Source: a virus
Reading direction: 5' to 3' (one strand)
IMG/VR virus record: IMGVR_UViG_3300043410_000684
Location: 1-22,477 of that record
DNA length: 22,477 bases
Notes under the pieces: generated by a model
What the model saw: only the letters and a program-made list of their open reading frames with translations
What the model was told of the DNA's origin: nothing
The model's database searches: none
Program-made: the position numbers and the translations under genes
Shown: in pieces, positions 14,050 to 22,477 of the stretch
Layout of the letters: every line of letters starts with the position of its first letter
Position numbering within the stretch: position 1 is the stretch's first letter

Positions 14050-15084
14050 CTACATTTTTGGTGGGGTTCTACGACCCATTGGTAAAAGAACTACTTTTTT
14101 CTTTCTCATTGGATGAACACCTGGTTCACCTGATTTACTACCTGGAGGTTGTCCCATACCAGCAACTGCGCCTGAACCAGTCACATTTGTTGGACCTGGA
14201 ACTGCAATACCACCATCTTCACCCATATTTAATCTCTTTGTGGCTCGATCTGTACCTACATTTCTATTTTTCCACTTTCTATCACCTAGAGCATCGGATG
14301 CACTAGGTCTCATCATAGTGTATGTTTTTTGTAAATTAGCTTTTTGTCTATATGACTTTAGTTTTTCTCTACCTGCTTCAGTATCACCAATTTCTTGTAT
14401 TTGTTCTACTTCTTCATTTTTTAATGAAGCTAGTTCTGATTTATGATGTCTAATATTTTCTTCATGTTCATCACCTTTACGTGTGCCATAATGAACATCA
14501 GCCATGTGGTCATGATATTTAATCATAGCTTTATGGTATCCAATTGTTCCATTTTTATATTCTCTAGCTGTTTGTAATAAATTATCACCAACAGATTCAT
14601 TTATTTCAGTTTCTTCTTTTAGATGTGCTATTTTATTATAGTCATCCATTGTTAATATGCCTTTATGACGCATATCAATAAGGCGTTCAACAACTTTATG
14701 TAATTCTACATCAGTCTTTACATCTTCACGAATAAGTTCAAATACACGAATCAATAATGGAATATCAAAAGTGATAGTATCTTTCTTATCAACTGATTCT
14801 GATATATCGCCAGTTAGATGTTCAGCATGAGTGTGTTTATGAGTATTAACATGAGCAACAAACTTATTAGCATGTTCTCTTTCTCTAAAACCAAATACAT
14901 ACCCTTTATCGGTAGCACCTTTATATGTGCCATGATGTTGGTTTACACCATAGTTTACGTGATCTTTAGGAAATGTAGAATGTTGATCATCAGGTTCGTC
15001 ATAGTTACGAACATGAACTTCGTGTGGATAACCATCAGACTCTTGTAATTGAGATTCTTTTCTAAGTTTACCAAATGATTTCAT
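14050..15084 (-). CDS. Modular virion-type protein with capsid-targeting-like N-terminus (344 aa)
   Basis: The start MKSFGKLRKESQLQE resembles the short N-terminal capsid-targeting peptides of T4 internal head proteins. I place it at the ATG (15084) that overlaps the upstream stop as TAATG; a GTG at 15096 is less likely. Four blocks follow: a His-rich part (20-92), a helical block DIPLLIRVFELIRED to LTMDDYNKIAHL (107-155) of a kind recurring in marine phage structural proteins, a helical His-rich part (167-222) and EEVEQIQEIGDTEAGREKL (225-243) with a basic continuation. The C-terminus is Gly/Pro-rich. Linkers DISES, EINES and QIQEI divide the blocks and resemble prohead-protease sites. Function is inferred only. 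Confidence 0.75.
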   Translation of the reverse strand: MKSFGKLRKESQLQESDGYPHEVHVRNYDEPDDQHSTFPKDHVNYGVNQHHGTYKGATDKGYVFGFREREHANKFVAHVNTHKHTHAEHLTGDISESVDKKDTITFDIPLLIRVFELIREDVKTDVELHKVVERLIDMRHKGILTMDDYNKIAHLKEETEINESVGDNLLQTAREYKNGTIGYHKAMIKYHDHMADVHYGTRKGDEHEENIRHHKSELASLKNEEVEQIQEIGDTEAGREKLKSYRQKANLQKTYTMMRPSASDALGDRKWKNRNVGTDRATKRLNMGEDGGIAVPGPTNVTGSGAVAGMGQPPGSKSGEPGVHPMRKKKVVLLPMGRRTPPKM

Positions 15085-15509
15085 TAGCAATTCCACTTTC
15101 TTAATGACTTATTAATTCTTGAATCCGGATCATGAGCAGTTTTAGCTGAAGTTAATTTAGCTTTCATACCTTTCATTCTTGAACAGAATGATTTTCTACG
15201 ATTAGCTGATTTAGAACCTGGTTTTAATTTACTAGGTTTAGTAGTGACCGCTGTTTGTAATTTTGAACCTGGATGTTCTCTGCGATATGATGCAACGCCT
15301 GCTTTATTGAGACCACCTTCGGGATTTTTACCAGCAGCACGTTGCCATGCAGGAGTTGATTCTTCAACACTTTCTGGAACGCAGTTAGGAACTGTTCTGC
15401 CATTTTTCTTTTTAGTACCTACGGCAGTATAACCTTTCCAACAAGCTTTCTTTAATTCACCTGATGGTTTAGATATTTCTTCTATCGTGTATGTTAAAAA
15501 AGATTTCAT
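15084..15509 (-). CDS. DUF6321-like two-module basic virion-type protein (141 aa)
   Basis: After an N-terminus MKSFLTYTIEE that resembles a capsid-targeting peptide come two recognisable modules: KKACWKGYTAVGTKKKNGR to VPNCVP (20-45), and AWQRAAGKNPEGGLNKAG through RRKSFCSRMKGM to DPDSRINKSLRKW (54-139), the latter matching what I know as DUF6321. They are joined by ESVEES, again an acidic linker. The protein is highly basic with five cysteines, compatible with binding DNA or RNA in the head or with zinc binding. It overlaps both neighbours by one to four bases. The module names come from memory and were not searched. Confidence 0.75.
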   Translation of the reverse strand: MKSFLTYTIEEISKPSGELKKACWKGYTAVGTKKKNGRTVPNCVPESVEESTPAWQRAAGKNPEGGLNKAGVASYRREHPGSKLQTAVTTKPSKLKPGSKSANRRKSFCSRMKGMKAKLTSAKTAHDPDSRINKSLRKWNC

Positions 15510-16879: not shown

Positions 16880-17587
16880 CTATCTATTTATCTTTTTTTT
16901 ATCTGCTTTAATCTGCATTCCAGAAGCATCAGACTTGTTATTTGGTTTATTCAACATTGGATCAAACTCGACATCATCTCGTTTTTGACCTGTTAATGTT
17001 GTTCCACCAGTTAATATAGCCGCTGCTTTTGGTTTACTATCTGATTGGTCGTCTTGCTGACCATCTTTTACTTTAGCAAATTTGGGTTTCTTGCCATATG
17101 ATTCTCCACCTTTATCGTCTTTTTCGTGGTCATATAACTCTTCTTTTACTTCTTTTTTAACTTTATGTTTTTTGTATAGTGCTTTAATCAAGTTAGCGTT
17201 TCTAGACATACCTTTTGCTCTTTCACCCACAACTCTAGAACTAGAACCTTTAGGATCTATTCCATCGTTACCAGGAAATTCAAGTGCTTCAGTTGCAACA
17301 GCACTTTGAGGTTTATTTACATGAACACGTCTTTTTAATGCCATATCTTTAGTATGAACTCTAGTTTGAGAAATACCCATAGATGATGGTTTATTTTGTG
17401 CAGTAGGACTATTAATTGGTTGTTCAATTATAATCTCTTCATTTTGCATACGTTGTGCAAATTGTTGAAATCTAATAGTCTTGGTTAAAGCCATGCGTCT
17501 ATTTCTATCAATAGTCTGTGGATTATAACCCATAGACTTGATATATCTATCTACAATGTCTTTAGCAAATTCGTCTAATTGATCCAT
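16880..17587 (-). CDS. Unknown basic virion-type protein sharing a module with the 893-aa protein (235 aa)
   Basis: Residues 12-45 (VDRYIKSMGYNPQTIDRNRR and following) repeat, with 15 identities in 34, the module at residues 830-863 of the upstream 893-aa protein. Both proteins also have a matching EELYD/EALYD stretch. The rest is low-complexity, rich in Lys, Asp, Gly, Ser and Gln, and probably disordered. The ribosome binding site AGAGGA is encoded by the last codons of the upstream gene, and the start lies two bases after that gene's stop. The last codons contain a GATAAATA late-promoter box for the next gene. I infer a partner or paralogue of the 893-aa protein in head assembly. Confidence 0.7.
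   Translation of the reverse strand: MDQLDEFAKDIVDRYIKSMGYNPQTIDRNRRMALTKTIRFQQFAQRMQNEEIIIEQPINSPTAQNKPSSMGISQTRVHTKDMALKRRVHVNKPQSAVATEALEFPGNDGIDPKGSSSRVVGERAKGMSRNANLIKALYKKHKVKKEVKEELYDHEKDDKGGESYGKKPKFAKVKDGQQDDQSDSKPKAAAILTGGTTLTGQKRDDVEFDPMLNKPNNKSDASGMQIKADKKKINR
16885..16892 (-). promoter_or_regulatory. T4-type late promoter box GATAAATA
   Basis: The - strand reads eight A residues followed by GATAAATA, 34 bases before the ATG of the Ig-like gene. T4 late promoters carry TATAAATA at -10, and marine relatives use NATAAATA-type boxes. The same 16 bases occur at 20337-20352. It lies in the last codons of the 235-aa gene. Confidence 0.65.
17453..17554 (-). repeat. Diverged protein-module repeat, copy B
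   Basis: It encodes residues 12-45 of the 235-aa protein. It pairs with 17683-17784 in the 893-aa gene (core RYIKSMGY / KYIRSMGY). The two copies are about 130 bases apart, at the end of one gene and the start of the next, suggesting duplication followed by gene splitting or shuffling. Confidence 0.7.
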
Positions 17588-17589
17588 TA

Positions 17590-20271
17590 TTATCCTCTAG
17601 CGGTTGCACCTGGTGACATATGGTCATCAATGTCTTGAGTACCTTTTTGACCACCATCATATAAAGCTTCAGTTTTTTGTGATGAAGCAAATGTTTTAAA
17701 TGCATTTGTTTTAGCAAACATCACTTTTTTGTTCTTATCAAGATGTTCTGGATCATAACCCATTGATCTGATATATTTGTCTAAAACTGCGGTTTCATCT
17801 ATTGAAACTTCTTCTGCCCATTTACCTGTTTTGTAAAATCTATTTTGTATACCTTTAGCAATATCAGTATTTGAACCTGGATTCTTTTGACGTTTAACAG
17901 CAGCTACAAATTTTTTATTATTCTTTGCTGCTTTTTCTCTTTGAGCATACTCTCTTGAAGAAATTTCAGTCGATTCATCAACTTGTTCTACTTCTTCAGT
18001 TTTTTTTGACCACTCTGGTTGTTTTGTTTTTCTATTAAATAAATCTTCTAAATCTTTTTTCTTTTGTGCAGCTAATTCAGGATCAGGTTTACTAGGTTTA
18101 TATGTTCCAGCTTTTATTTCAGCAGAAACACCTTTAAATGTATTAAATCCTTCAGACTTAACCCCATATTTAGCTTTTAATTCATCAAATTTAGCTTTTG
18201 CTTCTTTTTCAGCATTTTCACCTGAAGCTGCATATAGTTCTTTATCGTGAAAATCACCACCTCTTCGTGGATTTTGAGTATCTACTTTAAATGTATGGTG
18301 ATTAACAAACCACTTTTGGTCTTTAGGGTCAGGACCAGTGTGTGCTTGTTTAACTAAATGAATATGACCACCATCACTATGTTTAACTTTATCTTTTAAC
18401 TCATAAGAAGTTTCGTTAATAGATTCTACTTCTTCTGGTAATTTACGTTTTGCGCCATGTTCTTTATTAGCTAGTGTTGACTTAATTGCAGTTTTTAATA
18501 ATGTTCTTTGTCTAGATTTATCATCATCAGAATATTTAAGTCGGCTTCCTGGTAAATTTCCAGCAGGAATATTTTTCAAATTAGTTTGACCAGCTCTTGG
18601 TTTTCTTAAAACTGCGTTCAATCCAGTTCTAGCTTTAAGTGGATCAGGCGATGTTCCAGTTCCTGGTGTAATTACACGTTCAGCTTTTTTTTTATCGTCT
18701 TCTGAAGTGCAACCAGCCTTACCCATCATTGTTTCATCAACTTGTTCGATTTCTTCTTTTTTCATTACAACTTCGTTTTCATCTTTAGGTGTAACGATAG
18801 TTGCTTTCTTGATATTTTTCATATCTTTAGCACGTGCAAGAAGATCACCAAGTTTAACTAATGGTTTAGTATAGATTGGACCACCTGTGCCTTCAGATAA
18901 ATCAGGATCAAATGAATTCTTTTGAAGAGATTTATTTTGGAGAGATTTTAAACCTTGATGAGCTAAATGTGCAGCGGCTGATGGACCATAACCATGTTTA
19001 CCAGGTTTAGCAATCGGTCCATGCGGTTTATCTGGTGTGAATGGTAAATCTTTTGATTTATATTCGGATTTTTTTGGTTCTGAAGCTTCAGAAACATCTT
19101 TTGTGAGTTTCTTGATGTGATGTAAAACTTCTTGTTTATCAACCTTATGAGCATCGTCCATACCATCAATAGCATCTTCAATATGGTCCATTGTTACATC
19201 TTTACCATGTTTTTTAACAAGATGTTTAGCAATAGCTTCGTTATCAACGATTGCTTCATTTAATTTAGAATAACTATGTGCTGTGTGATGACCAGCAATA
19301 ACAGCTACATCACCACCAGAAATGCCATGTTCTTTTCCAACTTTCTCATAGTCTGCTTTTTTAAATTCTTTTGGACTTGAATATCCTTGTTTGTCAGCAT
19401 GCATCATCATTGTAGTGTAGATATCTTTCATGCGACCTTCATTAAGTTCTACTTCTTCTTTAGCCATTTTAGTAGCGGTAGCATACATTACATCTTTTGC
19501 TCTAGAGCCATATCTTGCTTTGAAACCTGCTAAACCTTTTTTCATCGATTTAACATATTTTTCTTTTTTCTCAGTTTCACCTGATGTTAATGTTCTTTCA
19601 TCAATTTCAACTGATTCATGTTTAGCACGAATCTTAGCTAAAATAGCACCAGCAACTTTCTTGCCACTCTCTGCTGAACCATATTCTTTACCTGCTTTAG
19701 CTGCAATCTTAGCAAAGTTTTTACCTGGCTTACCAATGTCTTTACCTGCTTTAGCAGCTTTTGCTGAATATACAGCTTCATCTAAATCAAGTTCTACTTC
19801 TTCTTTTTTAGAAGCACGAAGTTTTTTGAAATCGTCAGAATCTAATTTACCGTTATGATTCTTATCAAGCTTAACTTGGCCACCTTTTAATTCTTCTCCA
19901 ATACCTAAAGCTTTGTTGGTTTGTTTGTGTAGTGCTTGAAGTCTATCTAAACTTGGTGCTGGTCTTGGTCTACCACTTGGAACATATTTTGGTGGAGGTG
20001 TCACACCTTTTGGTAATTCTTCATCTAATTCAGGTTCGTCTTTTTGTTTAGAACCACCGTAAGCAGTACCAGCAACTTTACGAACACCTTGAGGTTTGTC
20101 TTCACCCTTTTCAGCTTTATCAGCTTCTTCTTTATCTCTCAAAGCATCTAGTTTTTTCTTACGAGCAACAGCCTCTGGATCAGGTTTAGCTGGTTCAACT
20201 TTAGCTTCACCCAATACAGAATTAACTGCATCGACTAGTGACTTTGGAACATCTGGGGCAAATTTTGACAT
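17590..20271 (-). CDS. Large modular virion-type protein with EF-hand and protease-site-like linkers (893 aa)
   Basis: No single known family covers it. It is a string of short charged modules: KPDPE repeat (29-46), EF-hand loop (136-147), YSAKAAKAGKDIGKPGKNF block (168-218), KYVKSMKKGLAGFKARYG to YATATKMA (238-270), a His-rich block (280-390), a Gly/Pro/Lys stretch (400-470), NAVLRKPRAG to KLP (552-611), a beta-like block with WFVNHHTFKV (621-700), a second KPDPE repeat (728-745), REYAQREKAA to KTGKW (773-818) and an SMGY module (830-863). Modules are separated by acidic linkers ending in hydrophobic-x-Glu, such as EEVELNE, EEVEQVDE and EEVSIDE. It is Lys/Glu rich, with one cysteine. A prohead-core or internal head polyprotein is the best inference. 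A GATAAATA box and AGGAG precede it. Confidence 0.75.
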   Translation of the reverse strand: MSKFAPDVPKSLVDAVNSVLGEAKVEPAKPDPEAVARKKKLDALRDKEEADKAEKGEDKPQGVRKVAGTAYGGSKQKDEPELDEELPKGVTPPPKYVPSGRPRPAPSLDRLQALHKQTNKALGIGEELKGGQVKLDKNHNGKLDSDDFKKLRASKKEEVELDLDEAVYSAKAAKAGKDIGKPGKNFAKIAAKAGKEYGSAESGKKVAGAILAKIRAKHESVEIDERTLTSGETEKKEKYVKSMKKGLAGFKARYGSRAKDVMYATATKMAKEEVELNEGRMKDIYTTMMMHADKQGYSSPKEFKKADYEKVGKEHGISGGDVAVIAGHHTAHSYSKLNEAIVDNEAIAKHLVKKHGKDVTMDHIEDAIDGMDDAHKVDKQEVLHHIKKLTKDVSEASEPKKSEYKSKDLPFTPDKPHGPIAKPGKHGYGPSAAAHLAHQGLKSLQNKSLQKNSFDPDLSEGTGGPIYTKPLVKLGDLLARAKDMKNIKKATIVTPKDENEVVMKKEEIEQVDETMMGKAGCTSEDDKKKAERVITPGTGTSPDPLKARTGLNAVLRKPRAGQTNLKNIPAGNLPGSRLKYSDDDKSRQRTLLKTAIKSTLANKEHGAKRKLPEEVESINETSYELKDKVKHSDGGHIHLVKQAHTGPDPKDQKWFVNHHTFKVDTQNPRRGGDFHDKELYAASGENAEKEAKAKFDELKAKYGVKSEGFNTFKGVSAEIKAGTYKPSKPDPELAAQKKKDLEDLFNRKTKQPEWSKKTEEVEQVDESTEISSREYAQREKAAKNNKKFVAAVKRQKNPGSNTDIAKGIQNRFYKTGKWAEEVSIDETAVLDKYIRSMGYDPEHLDKNKKVMFAKTNAFKTFASSQKTEALYDGGQKGTQDIDDHMSPGATARG
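17683..17784 (-). repeat. Diverged protein-module repeat, copy A
   Basis: It encodes residues 830-863 of the 893-aa protein (LDKYIRSMGYDPEHLDKNKK and following) and is the partner of 17453-17554. It directly follows the linker EEVSIDE. Confidence 0.7.
18037..18090 (-). repeat. KPDPE module, copy 2, inside the 893-aa gene
   Basis: Residues 728-745 read KPDPELAAQKKKDLEDLF, against KPDPEAVARKKKLDALRD at residues 30-47. The shared pattern KPDPExxAxKKK is an internal repeat, so the same module was used twice, near each end of the protein. Confidence 0.6.
19831..19866 (-). other. EF-hand calcium-binding loop in the 893-aa protein
   Basis: Residues 136-147 read DKNHNGKLDSDD, followed by Phe148. 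This is a canonical 12-residue loop with D1, N3, N5, G6, a hydrophobic residue at 8, D9 and an acidic residue at 12. Asp instead of the usual Glu at position 12 may lower calcium affinity or favour magnesium. It is a single loop without an obvious partner hand. Confidence 0.7.
20134..20187 (-). repeat. KPDPE module, copy 1, inside the 893-aa gene
   Basis: It encodes residues 29-46 of the 893-aa protein and is the partner of 18037-18090. It lies in the N-terminal Lys/Glu/Ala-rich region. Confidence 0.6.
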
Positions 20272-20283
20272 TATTATCTCCTA

Positions 20284-22053
20284 TTATTTTCCACTGGTTT
20301 GTTTCTGCTCTACGCTAGAACCAATGTTTGATTGCTTATTTATCTTTTTTTTCTTTGTAGTTTCACCGGATGATGAAAATTTGTTCAATGGTGTTTCTAG
20401 TGGTTCTTTATTAACTGCATTACCCATACCACCAAACATACCCATATCTGAAGCACCTGGATCATCGATTGCTTCTTTGACTTTATTTCTGAATTTACTA
20501 AAACTTTCTCTATATGTGACGTTACCAAGACCACTCATTGGATAGACGGTACCAGAAGTTCTATTATCCCATGTATCACCAACACCTGTGCCATTCATGA
20601 CTTTACCAGGTAACACATTATTTACTGCTGTTCTTTTGTTCTTTTTAGTTTCTTTATCTGTATCGAAATTTGGCACTTTTGGTGTTGGATTAATCTTTAA
20701 TGTTGGTTGTGATTCAACATATGTCTTAAAGATGTAACTGGAGTTATCTTTAACATCACCATCTCTAACATCATCTTGTTTACCAGATTTTCTAATCATT
20801 TGTGTGACTGGTGCACTATTTTTTAATATCTTCTTAGTTTCAAATAGTGACTTAATATCTTCATTGATATCTAAACGGTCTTTTGATCTTAACCAATCTT
20901 TAGCGGATTCTGTCAATACTTTAGCTCTAAAGAAGAATGATATCTCATTAGACATATCACTCAATTCGTTTTGTTTATTCTCTCTTACAAGGGCATCTGA
21001 TTCCTGTAAATTGATTGAATTATCAAACTCTAAGAAAGCTTCAAATATATCATAAAACTTATCAAGATTTTCCTGTGATTTATTCCATTTATCAAGTCTA
21101 ATTTGTTCAGAGATTATTCTTGAATGTTGTTGGTTACGTTTCTCTGAGATTTCGTTTGTTGTATTAACGAATACCATCATTGTCGTGTAACCTAATTCTT
21201 CAAGCTCTTCTTTGATAGTAGAAATCTTTTCAATATCATCCGAAGCACCATTAATCACTAATGCGTTTCTATTTCTAATAGCATTGAGTTGATAATCTTT
21301 AGTTTCTTCTGATAACTTTAATTTGTCGATAATGAAATCGTAGGCTTTGTTTGCATTAATCTCAACTGCGTTCTTTTCTGCAATTGCTTCTCGGATAATA
21401 ACATCTTTTCCTGAACCAGGTCCACCAACCAGGAATAATGCTTTAAACATACTACGATTTGCACTCTCATGTAATCCCATACCACTTCTTGTGTCATGAA
21501 ACAATTCTCTTGAATGTTTGTCATTCTTTTGAATATTAGATGGCAAATTCTTTTTAAATGAACCATAATCATTATTCTTAGCGTGATTACGCATATCGGT
21601 GCCAGAAACACCTTCTTTTCTTTGGCCTGTAGATGTTACTGTAATCTTTTTGAAGTTGTATTCTTTACCGTTGTATTTGTGTAATAGGTCGTGATATTCT
21701 TTTGCTCTATCAGCACCAGCAGCTACGATAAGGTGATTGTAACCTTTTGCAGCTAAACGTTTAGCATGATGAATGATTGTTGGATGTTCTTTAGATGCAA
21801 CTTCAATGTTAGTATCTGGAAATGCTCTGTTTAGATGTTTTTGTTTTTGTTCAGGTGATAATGGGTTTTTCTTTTTATCTTGTGAATGTGAAGCAACAAC
21901 CAAATGGTCTGCATGATGTTTTGCAGCCAATTCTTTTACGCCATTAATATTTTCTTCATGGCCTTTTGTAGGAGGATTCATACGACCATAGTGTAAGACT
22001 ACGGCCTTATTTTTTTCTTCCGTTAATTCTATAAAAGATTTAATTTGAGTCAT
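20284..22053 (-). CDS. Nucleotidyltransferase-P-loop kinase fusion with virion-type tail (589 aa)
   Basis: After a short N-terminus IKSFIELTEE (4-13) that resembles a capsid-targeting peptide comes a cytidylyltransferase/NMN-adenylyltransferase-like domain: HYGRMNPPTKGHEEN (21-35; T/HxGH nucleotide-binding motif) and GVSGTDMR (148-155; the ISSTxxR-like motif). A second domain starts with a Walker A loop GGPGSGKD (210-217), where Asp replaces the usual Ser/Thr, and looks like a small-molecule or zeta-type kinase. Residues about 350-589 are charged and low-complexity, with a conserved-looking DPGASDMGMFGGMGN (542-556). The order adenylyltransferase then kinase recalls NadR of NAD salvage, but substrate residues cannot be assigned. 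It overlaps the HAD gene by 14 bases and is followed by the 893-aa gene. Confidence 0.8.
   Translation of the reverse strand: MTQIKSFIELTEEKNKAVVLHYGRMNPPTKGHEENINGVKELAAKHHADHLVVASHSQDKKKNPLSPEQKQKHLNRAFPDTNIEVASKEHPTIIHHAKRLAAKGYNHLIVAAGADRAKEYHDLLHKYNGKEYNFKKITVTSTGQRKEGVSGTDMRNHAKNNDYGSFKKNLPSNIQKNDKHSRELFHDTRSGMGLHESANRSMFKALFLVGGPGSGKDVIIREAIAEKNAVEINANKAYDFIIDKLKLSEETKDYQLNAIRNRNALVINGASDDIEKISTIKEELEELGYTTMMVFVNTTNEISEKRNQQHSRIISEQIRLDKWNKSQENLDKFYDIFEAFLEFDNSINLQESDALVRENKQNELSDMSNEISFFFRAKVLTESAKDWLRSKDRLDINEDIKSLFETKKILKNSAPVTQMIRKSGKQDDVRDGDVKDNSSYIFKTYVESQPTLKINPTPKVPNFDTDKETKKNKRTAVNNVLPGKVMNGTGVGDTWDNRTSGTVYPMSGLGNVTYRESFSKFRNKVKEAIDDPGASDMGMFGGMGNAVNKEPLETPLNKFSSSGETTKKKKINKQSNIGSSVEQKQTSGK
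20337..20344 (-). promoter_or_regulatory. T4-type late promoter box GATAAATA
   Basis: Eight A residues and GATAAATA on the - strand, identical over 16 bases to the box at 16885-16900, lie 65 bases before the ATG of the 893-aa gene and within the last codons of the kinase fusion gene. The repetition of the A-run with the box makes a functional late promoter more likely than either alone. Confidence 0.6.
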
Positions 22054-22477
22054 CGTTTAATTTCTTCGTTGTTCCGTCAGGTTGAACATGATAAGCATGA
22101 AACTTGACGTGTGGATATTCCTTTTTCATTTTTAATAATCTAGATAAATTTTGTTTACTATCATCATACAATGTTACATGTTTGTATGGGTGATTATCTA
22201 GATACTTTCTAACCACTTTAACTTTCTTCTCGGATGGTGGTTCATCACCAGGAATATTACCTGCTCGTTCTACATGGACTTTGTTAATATCAATTCCATG
22301 TTGTTTAAACTTCTTAGCAAACTTACCTTGTTTATCAAAATCTGCTCGTGCTGTATTTATAATGACCTTACTACCAGTCTTCTTCTCCACGTTTTTCTGA
22401 ATTGCTTTGAGTTTGTTAATCATAGGGTGTATAGGTTCACCTTCTTTATGAAACTTATCAGCACTTCTAAACTCAGA
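22040..22477 (-). CDS. HAD-like phosphatase, 5' end beyond the window
   Basis: The frame is open to the window edge. Eighteen codons before the first internal ATG (22423) read SEFRSADKFHKEGEPIHP, which continues the same conserved protein, so the true start lies outside. Visible HAD motifs are INTARAD (motif II Thr) and LYDDS (motif IV acidic pair), with KVHVERAGN and YPHVKFHAYHV typical of phage HAD proteins. The catalytic DxD of motif I must be upstream, outside the window. Such enzymes remove phosphate from nucleotides or small metabolites. Its overlap with the nucleotidyltransferase-kinase gene suggests joint expression and perhaps a shared pathway or shared packaging in the virion. Confidence 0.8.
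   Translation of the reverse strand, partial: SEFRSADKFHKEGEPIHPMINKLKAIQKNVEKKTGSKVIINTARADFDKQGKFAKKFKQHGIDINKVHVERAGNIPGDEPPSEKKVKVVRKYLDNHPYKHVTLYDDSKQNLSRLLKMKKEYPHVKFHAYHVQPDGTTKKLNDDSN

Follow-up and report, generated by a model that had tools for sequence, protein, structure and literature searches.

The prohead protease of phage T4 breaks the core proteins gp22, gp67 and gp68 down into peptides and also trims the internal proteins and Alt (PMC5694885, PMC9958956), and the internal proteins Ip1-3 are injected restriction inhibitors (PMC12373910). Here we describe an 893-amino-acid (893-aa) modular protein encoded by IMG/VR virus record IMGVR_UViG_3300043410_000684, positions 1 to 22,477; this whole stretch of 22,477 nucleotides is referred to as the window. 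An original prediction, made from the sequence alone, had held that the modules of this protein are separated by prohead-protease-like sites; the open reading frame (ORF) and its modular make-up were confirmed, on the minus strand. We rate the chances as about even that the protein is a late polyprotein of modular build, packaged in the head and akin to the T4 internal and core proteins.

Like T4 IPI-III and Alt, the 893-aa protein has a short N-terminal leader that ends in hydrophobic-x-Glu followed by a small residue. Neighbouring proteins share this kind of N-terminus (MKTFYTHLTE/Q, MKSFKSFLTE/G and, in S-CREM2, MKNFSSFLTE/A, where the slash marks the candidate cut), and content is highly variable in both systems. 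The T4 internal proteins, however, are encoded one per gene and receive one N-terminal cut (Alt one at each end; PMC5694885), whereas about 13 segments and about 13 sites lie in this one ORF, and its leader sequence differs from the T4 capsid-targeting sequence. T4 gp67, gp68 and gp22 are located in the core and receive multiple gp21 cuts (PMC9958956, PMC5694885), and linker-module proteins stand at, or are fused to, such genes in genomes G003 and G001. Unlike these core proteins, to which it has no sequence similarity (PHROGs), the 893-aa protein has recognisable, conserved and swappable modules, some with known folds in relatives. Polyvalent proteins (Iyer et al. 2017, PMC5512222) likewise carry many unrelated domains per polypeptide and are predicted to be packaged and injected, but their domains are enzymatic, often with a peptidase of their own, whereas the modules here are about 40 to 65 aa long and the sites match a separate prohead protease. 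The inner-body proteins of SPN3US and phiKZ also show multiple prohead-protease cuts after Glu (PMC5694885), but with a diverged protease and motif (AxE/SxE) and long propeptides, and they are not chains of shuffled modules. We would class the 893-aa protein neither with the T4 core proteins nor with the polyvalent proteins; on our reading it would behave as an internal/core protein of the T4 type in polyprotein form. A literature search pairing prohead protease or internal head protein with polyprotein found no paper in the collection covered, which does not in itself prove novelty.

RESULTS

Segments and linkers of the 893-aa protein

The ORF has an ATG start and is a single open frame opposite a stop-rich stretch of plus strand. 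Its product is Lys-rich (140 Lys) and consists of segments mostly 40 to 65 aa long, with bodies mostly basic and ends acidic. The eight linkers of the original prediction, ending at Glu residues 165, 225, 278, 339, 513, 620, 766 and 826, are all present as described, and the duplicated KPDPE is real (residues 29 and 728). Five further candidate sites were found (LGE22/A, LDE84/E, IGE126/E, VSE395/A and LSE460/G). A linker peptide is exemplified by KKEEVEQVDETMMGK. The features of the ORF, in window coordinates, are as follows.

17590 to 20271, minus strand: 893-aa modular protein, about 13 segments split by [LIV][DNSG]E sites; homologues L001 to L005
20206 to 20271, minus strand: N-terminal leader MSKFAPDVPKSLVDAVNSVLGE/A, residues 1 to 22, ending LGE22/A; seen at the N-termini of relatives, including G037 and G038
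19807 to 19893, minus strand: EF-hand/dockerin-like module, residues 127 to 155; duplicated in L003 and L004
19777 to 19806, minus strand: linker KEEVELDLDE165/A
19597 to 19617, minus strand: linker ESVEIDE225/R; P1 Glu and P3 L/I/V kept in homologues of diverse context
19459 to 19596, minus strand: widespread module 226-271 (ERxLTxxE..YVKxMKK..FKxRYGxRAKxVMYATATKMAK), predicted helical
19438 to 19458, minus strand: linker EEVELNE278/G
19255 to 19437, minus strand: module 279-339, ending KLNE339/A; changes places with the following module in L001, L002 and L004
19087 to 19254, minus strand: module 340-395, ending DVSE395/A; [LIV]xE before the module in three of three unrelated contexts
18892 to 18903, minus strand: site DLSE460/G; TKE/G instead in L001 and L003 (counterexample)
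18733 to 18756, minus strand: linker EEIEQVDE513/T; module MMGKAGCTSEDDKKK has [LIV]xE before it in three of three unrelated contexts
18412 to 18435, minus strand: linker EEVESINE620/T
17974 to 17997, minus strand: linker EEVEQVDE766/S
17794 to 17814, minus strand: linker EEVSIDE826/T, ahead of the conserved C-terminal module
17593 to 17793, minus strand: C-terminal module 827-893 (LDKYIRSMGYDP...); the following ORF (235 aa) has a paralogous N-terminus

The leader is common to the relatives as xxSxxDAVxxIMxE/, with the terminal site LGE/A or IMxE/A. By its position and terminal site it resembles a capsid-targeting sequence and may serve as one. Searches of PHROGs and Pfam with the 893-aa protein matched no family apart from a weak EF-hand; none of the core-protein families in these databases matched, no peptidase or large enzymatic domain was detected (Pfam, E 0.1), and a search of solved structures by sequence gave no match. 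The predicted EF-hand is weak in the window itself (residues 134 to 151, E 0.019, below the cut-off), while EF-hand modules of related proteins reach E 1.1e-6 to 3.2e-7. An AlphaFold model of the whole protein, built from six sequences, was of low confidence, with a predicted local distance difference test score (pLDDT) of 49 and a predicted template modelling score (pTM) of 0.21; residues 279 to 395 formed the chief ordered island, and predicted order was low at the linkers. Matches of this model to the PDB (Z about 5, including small helical DNA-binding folds) were within noise for helical models and were rejected.

A tightened motif exceeds chance

The T4 rule invoked by the original prediction proved too loose to serve as evidence: bare [LIV]xE occurs 14 times in the 893-aa protein against 11.3 expected, and 441 of 2000 shuffles reached 14, so that the bare motif was rejected as being at chance level. 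In contrast, the protein contains 13 [LIV][DNSG]E sites, where 2.7 are expected, and 11 of the form [LIV][DNSG]E[AGSTR], where 0.9 are expected; none of 2000 composition-preserving shuffles reached either count. Since the P2 set [DNSG] was picked after the window had been viewed, it was checked in 48 independent proteins from other phages, where [LIV]DE was enriched 4.1-fold over shuffles (z 15), or 3.6-fold with P1′ included (z 12.8). The controls [LIV]xD and [LIV]xK were not enriched, and [LIV][DNSG]E was at about 1x in eight window ORFs for replication and metabolism. Among the 27 window ORFs, the 893-aa ORF alone passed Bonferroni correction. The sites are spaced more evenly than random points (coefficient of variation 0.46 versus 0.90, P 0.0018). 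The evidence is thus in the tighter form of the sequence motif, its position and its conservation, and not in the bare T4 rule.

Homologues shuffle modules preferentially at the linkers

Viral contigs yielded five relatives (L001 to L005, three of them full length). They keep the leader and the C-terminal module, while the middle modules are permuted, duplicated or missing. The window order of residues 226-278, GRMKDIY and AIVDNEA has its last two members reversed in L001, L002 and L004, and the NNKKFVAAVKRQK module sits elsewhere in L002 and L005. The AIVDNEA junction is preceded by LNE, IYE, ITE or VNE behind differing upstream modules, and the MMGKAG junction by VDE, IKE, LDE or VKE.

Homology breakpoints were defined by ungapped high-scoring segment pairs (HSPs), with a boundary at most 2 aa from [LIV]xE counted as coinciding, and were compared with 1000 circular shifts. 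[LIV]xE marked 20.0% of the breakpoints within the close family, against 7.2% expected, and 22.0% of those among 54 proteins, against 9.4% expected; 0 of 1000 shifts matched either value, and enrichment was 2.0 to 2.8 times chance. In the controls, [LIV]xD and [LIV]xK were not enriched, and any Glu reached 1.4 to 1.8 times chance, below [LIV]xE. A version of the test with gapped HSPs was dropped: there the any-Glu and [DEKN]xE controls equalled [LIV]xE, and it was uninformative because weak HSPs end on Glu. Shared modules had a median ratio of nonsynonymous to synonymous substitution (dN/dS) of 0.37, a value somewhat lowered by the use of HSPs of at least 60% identity; by this sequence measure they are under purifying selection.

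Module boundaries fall preferentially, and not always, at the linkers while the modules permute, duplicate and drop out. The opposite pattern, varying modules with unconserved linkers, was looked for in the homologues and was not found: [LIV]xE at the joints is conserved across homologues with different modules, as expected of a substrate of an S77 prohead protease.

Module 226-271 carries the same junction into diverse contexts

At least 566 IMG/VR contigs contain a copy of residues 222 to 278, and many positions of module 226-271 hardly vary among the diverse phages that carry it. Where the upstream sequence was unrelated (55 contexts), P1 was Glu in 55 of 55 and [LIVM]xE preceded the module in 50 of 55. 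An alignment of 45 rows from diverse contexts had P1 Glu in 45 and P3 L/I/V in 42, with residues farther upstream weakly conserved. Modelled alone by AlphaFold, the module had pLDDT 91 to 96 over segment residues 11 to 50, against about 66 for the linker; it is thus predicted to be a confident helical unit that begins just past the cut-like site. A Foldseek search with this model gave no significant match.

An S77 prohead protease and a predicted capsid site of the linker form occur in relatives

The closest cultivated relatives, judged by the adjoining cytidylyltransferase, are T4-like Kyanoviridae. Searches for the S77 protease in near relatives of 14 to 31 kb found none, these contigs being too short. 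Relatives by nrdA (about 82% identical) include G037 and G038, two large records whose genes are arranged as in the window; there the block comprises the cytidylyltransferase, a modular protein with the leader MFTKxxxxQSMIDAVxSV, a second modular protein, a head protein, a DUF7207-like protein and a CW.GY/DUF6321 protein. The S77 protease was present in all five nrdA relatives larger than 100 kb and in one of 89 kb, and was not found in eight shorter or partial ones (44 to 94 kb). Of the relatives larger than 150 kb, three of three chosen by cytidylyltransferase and four of five chosen by module carried it. Both G037 and G038 have the protease, with a predicted site ITE/G, and a major capsid protein (MCP) with a predicted site LNE/T, which has the form of the linkers and was taken at the position where the T4 gp23 cut would be expected. 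The predicted capsid site was LxE in 13 of 13 capsid proteins, and protease N-termini were mostly [IL]xE.

Map-position counterparts are virion proteins

Published mass spectrometry (MS) places related proteins in virions; these counterparts were matched by map position and shared modules, and none is homologous to the 893-aa protein over its full length. In S-SZBM1, SSZBM1_139 (457 aa), encoded directly downstream of the cytidylyltransferase, was represented by four virion peptides (PMC9146016), and it has EMTE/GLK ahead of a CWKGY module. In S-CREM2, gp154 (the cytidylyltransferase), gp155, gp156, gp160 and gp137 were detected in virions and gp157 to gp159 were not (PMC10665884). S-CREM2 gp154 is the protein with the N-terminus MKNFSSFLTE/A, gp160 is a linker-module protein with CW.GY, and the C-terminus of gp137 is DUF6321. 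S-SM1 virions likewise contained the cytidylyltransferase (PMC3037559).

Within gp154 to gp160 of S-CREM2 (L148), the four virion-detected proteins have [LIV]xE near the N-terminus, and the three undetected ones lack it in the first 50 or so residues.

Neighbouring genes and related modular proteins

The ORFs around the 893-aa ORF include the following.

16880 to 17587, minus strand: 235-aa ORF starting MDQLDE/FAKDIVDRYIKSMGYNP; extra module in L005, modular counterparts in G037 and G038
20284 to 22053, minus strand: cytidylyltransferase and kinase protein, N-terminus MTQIKSFIELTE/E
15084 to 15509, minus strand: 141-aa ORF with CWKGY module and DUF6321; modules common to S-CREM2 gp160/gp137 and S-SZBM1_139
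14050 to 15096, minus strand: 348-aa ORF, N-terminus MKSFGKLRKESQLQE/S; modules gained or lost among relatives

Cyanophage cytidylyltransferases of the same family are virion proteins (PMC3037559, PMC10665884, PMC9146016). Adjacent pairs of linker-module ORFs, like the 893-aa and 235-aa ORFs, also occur in L064, L068, L089, L097, L109 and L115. A HAD-like phosphatase lies at window positions 22040 to 22423 and at L001:1529-2161; the relatives' N-terminus MKSFKSFLTE/G looks capsid-targeting, and the window copy runs past the contig end, so its listed ATG is internal. A protein of 388 to 415 aa with HLEHLEDxxxNxG is conserved in the same block (L001:378-1547, L028:7233-8465, L029:7368-8615) and has a capsid-targeting-like start in some phages (MKTFYTHLTE/Q, LINFSKYITE/D).

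Related modular proteins bear HicA, SAM-lyase, EF-hand or kinase domains. HicA-like modules were above the Pfam cut-off in six of ten modular proteins tested (L068, L074, L081, L084, L094 and L104); they keep the His of a GGH/GSH motif and are flanked by [LIV]xE sites, mostly EEVExLDE/MPE/ and SEETEIDE/. S-SZBM1_194 (L152:43253-45376), whose gene lies between the terminase subunit genes, has a C-terminal SAM-lyase-like module (PF23780) after YREFIAE/G, which we take to resemble the T4 capsid-targeting sequence. As far as the published virion protein list was available, S-SZBM1_194 is absent from it. In L094:4125-8156, an intein-like insert (PF14890, E 5.6e-4, below the cut-off) at residues of about 873 to 1027 of 1344 interrupts a KFDVYP/SAYANGW module.

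DISCUSSION

The reading of this protein as an expanded version of the T4 core and internal-protein system is the one we favour. It gains from the enriched and evenly spaced motif, from module boundaries on linkers, from the S77 protease and predicted capsid site of relatives, from the linker proteins of G003 and G001 that stand at or are fused to core-type genes, from virion counterparts, and from the purifying selection and effector-type domains seen in modules; the remainder we infer. Association of the 893-aa protein with the head is highly likely. Cutting at the linkers is probable, given the motif, its position and the co-occurrence of the protease. A leader ending LGE/A would send the polyprotein into the prohead core, where the activated S77 protease (the gp21 homologue) would cut behind the Glu residue of each [LIV][DNSG]E linker and yield about 13 small, mostly basic modules. 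Some modules would stay with the DNA and, like the T4 internal proteins, enter the host by injection and act there; such retention and injection is plausible, falling just short of an even chance. Other modules may merely fill the core and then leave. Module swaps are seen among the homologues, and recombination at the linkers could make them quick.

Several observations weigh against this model. No S77 protease was found in the 22-kb window, which is too short for the head genes. P2 is D or N in most linkers, versus A, T, S, G or F in most predicted capsid and protease sites. Most homology boundaries lie more than 4 aa from any site. The joint KKKAE/RVITPG in the window, where a deletion took the VELDE present in L002, L003 and L005, has no site, and the L001/L003 joint TKE/GTGG also has none. 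When all ORFs of HTVC008M, Melnitz, G037 and G038 were scanned for linker enrichment, none was significant; in G013 and G012 modular ORFs ranked first yet failed correction. The four virion peptides of SSZBM1_139 are compatible with a whole as well as a cut protein. G014 (locus L114; 212,917 bases) carries module 226-271 with no S77 protease detected; it may use another prohead protease.

In a sacrificial prohead core protein like T4 gp67, gp68 or gp22, the protease-cut pieces would exit the capsid, and modules that were mostly filler or assembly contacts would be free to drift. This is an unlikely account of the 893-aa protein with some evidence in its favour: in G003, a 613-aa linker protein is encoded immediately ahead of gp21-gp22-gp23, where T4 has gp67/68, and the N-terminus of a linker protein in G001 matches PHROG 1064 'prohead' (E 1.3e-5). 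When the 191 ORFs of G013 were ranked by motif, with a modular ORF at rank 1 and no ORF passing correction, ranks four, six and seven went to the two genes located upstream of gp21 and to the scaffold gene. Virion detection is compatible with such a core, since the scaffold itself was detected in virions by MS (PMC9146016). Free drift, however, is not what the purifying selection on modules and the near-invariance of module 226-271 suggest, and the HicA and SAM-lyase modules of related proteins are of effector type. Together, these sequence features lean towards effectors rather than pure filler.

The linkers might instead never be cut. In an uncut, beads-on-a-string head protein, which we consider rather improbable, the acidic linkers would be flexible hinges and recombination seams, and their low predicted order suits any flexible hinge. 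Linkers of the same sequence within a contig had a codon identity of 0.77 versus 0.60 expected (n = 133 codons), a lower bound because exactly identical copies were left out, as recombination through linkers would give. This sharing above expectation makes such recombination plausible under any reading. A hinge or seam, on the other hand, requires no fixed [LIV]-x-Glu at P3 and P1, the [LIV]xD and [LIV]xK controls show no enrichment, and the matching MCP site LNE/T of close relatives would be coincidence. That the protein is not a head protein at all, and is an early or cytoplasmic protein of modular build, with acidic linkers that mimic the motif by composition, is highly improbable. The bare motif is indeed at chance and the virion data come from other phages, but the tight motif exceeds composition-preserving shuffles, and MS has placed map-position counterparts as well as module-sharing proteins in virions.

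T4 pre-loads its heads with injected counter-defence proteins, each encoded by one gene. For the head-packaged polyprotein we tentatively extend this to a wider proposal, which we regard as possible and on balance doubtful in its full form: T4-like phages of seas and lakes would make a leader-targeted precursor that the prohead protease cuts at EEVExxDE-type linkers into at least a dozen mini-proteins, some of them HicA-like or SAM-lyase effectors injected with the genome, and the linker would be a standard joint for free swapping within and between phages. If so, a protease-cut chain with a standard joint would load many proteins at once and leave them swappable by recombination. A recognisable joint would also make it possible to parse hundreds of small domains that lack annotation in aquatic phages and to catalogue them as candidate injected effectors.

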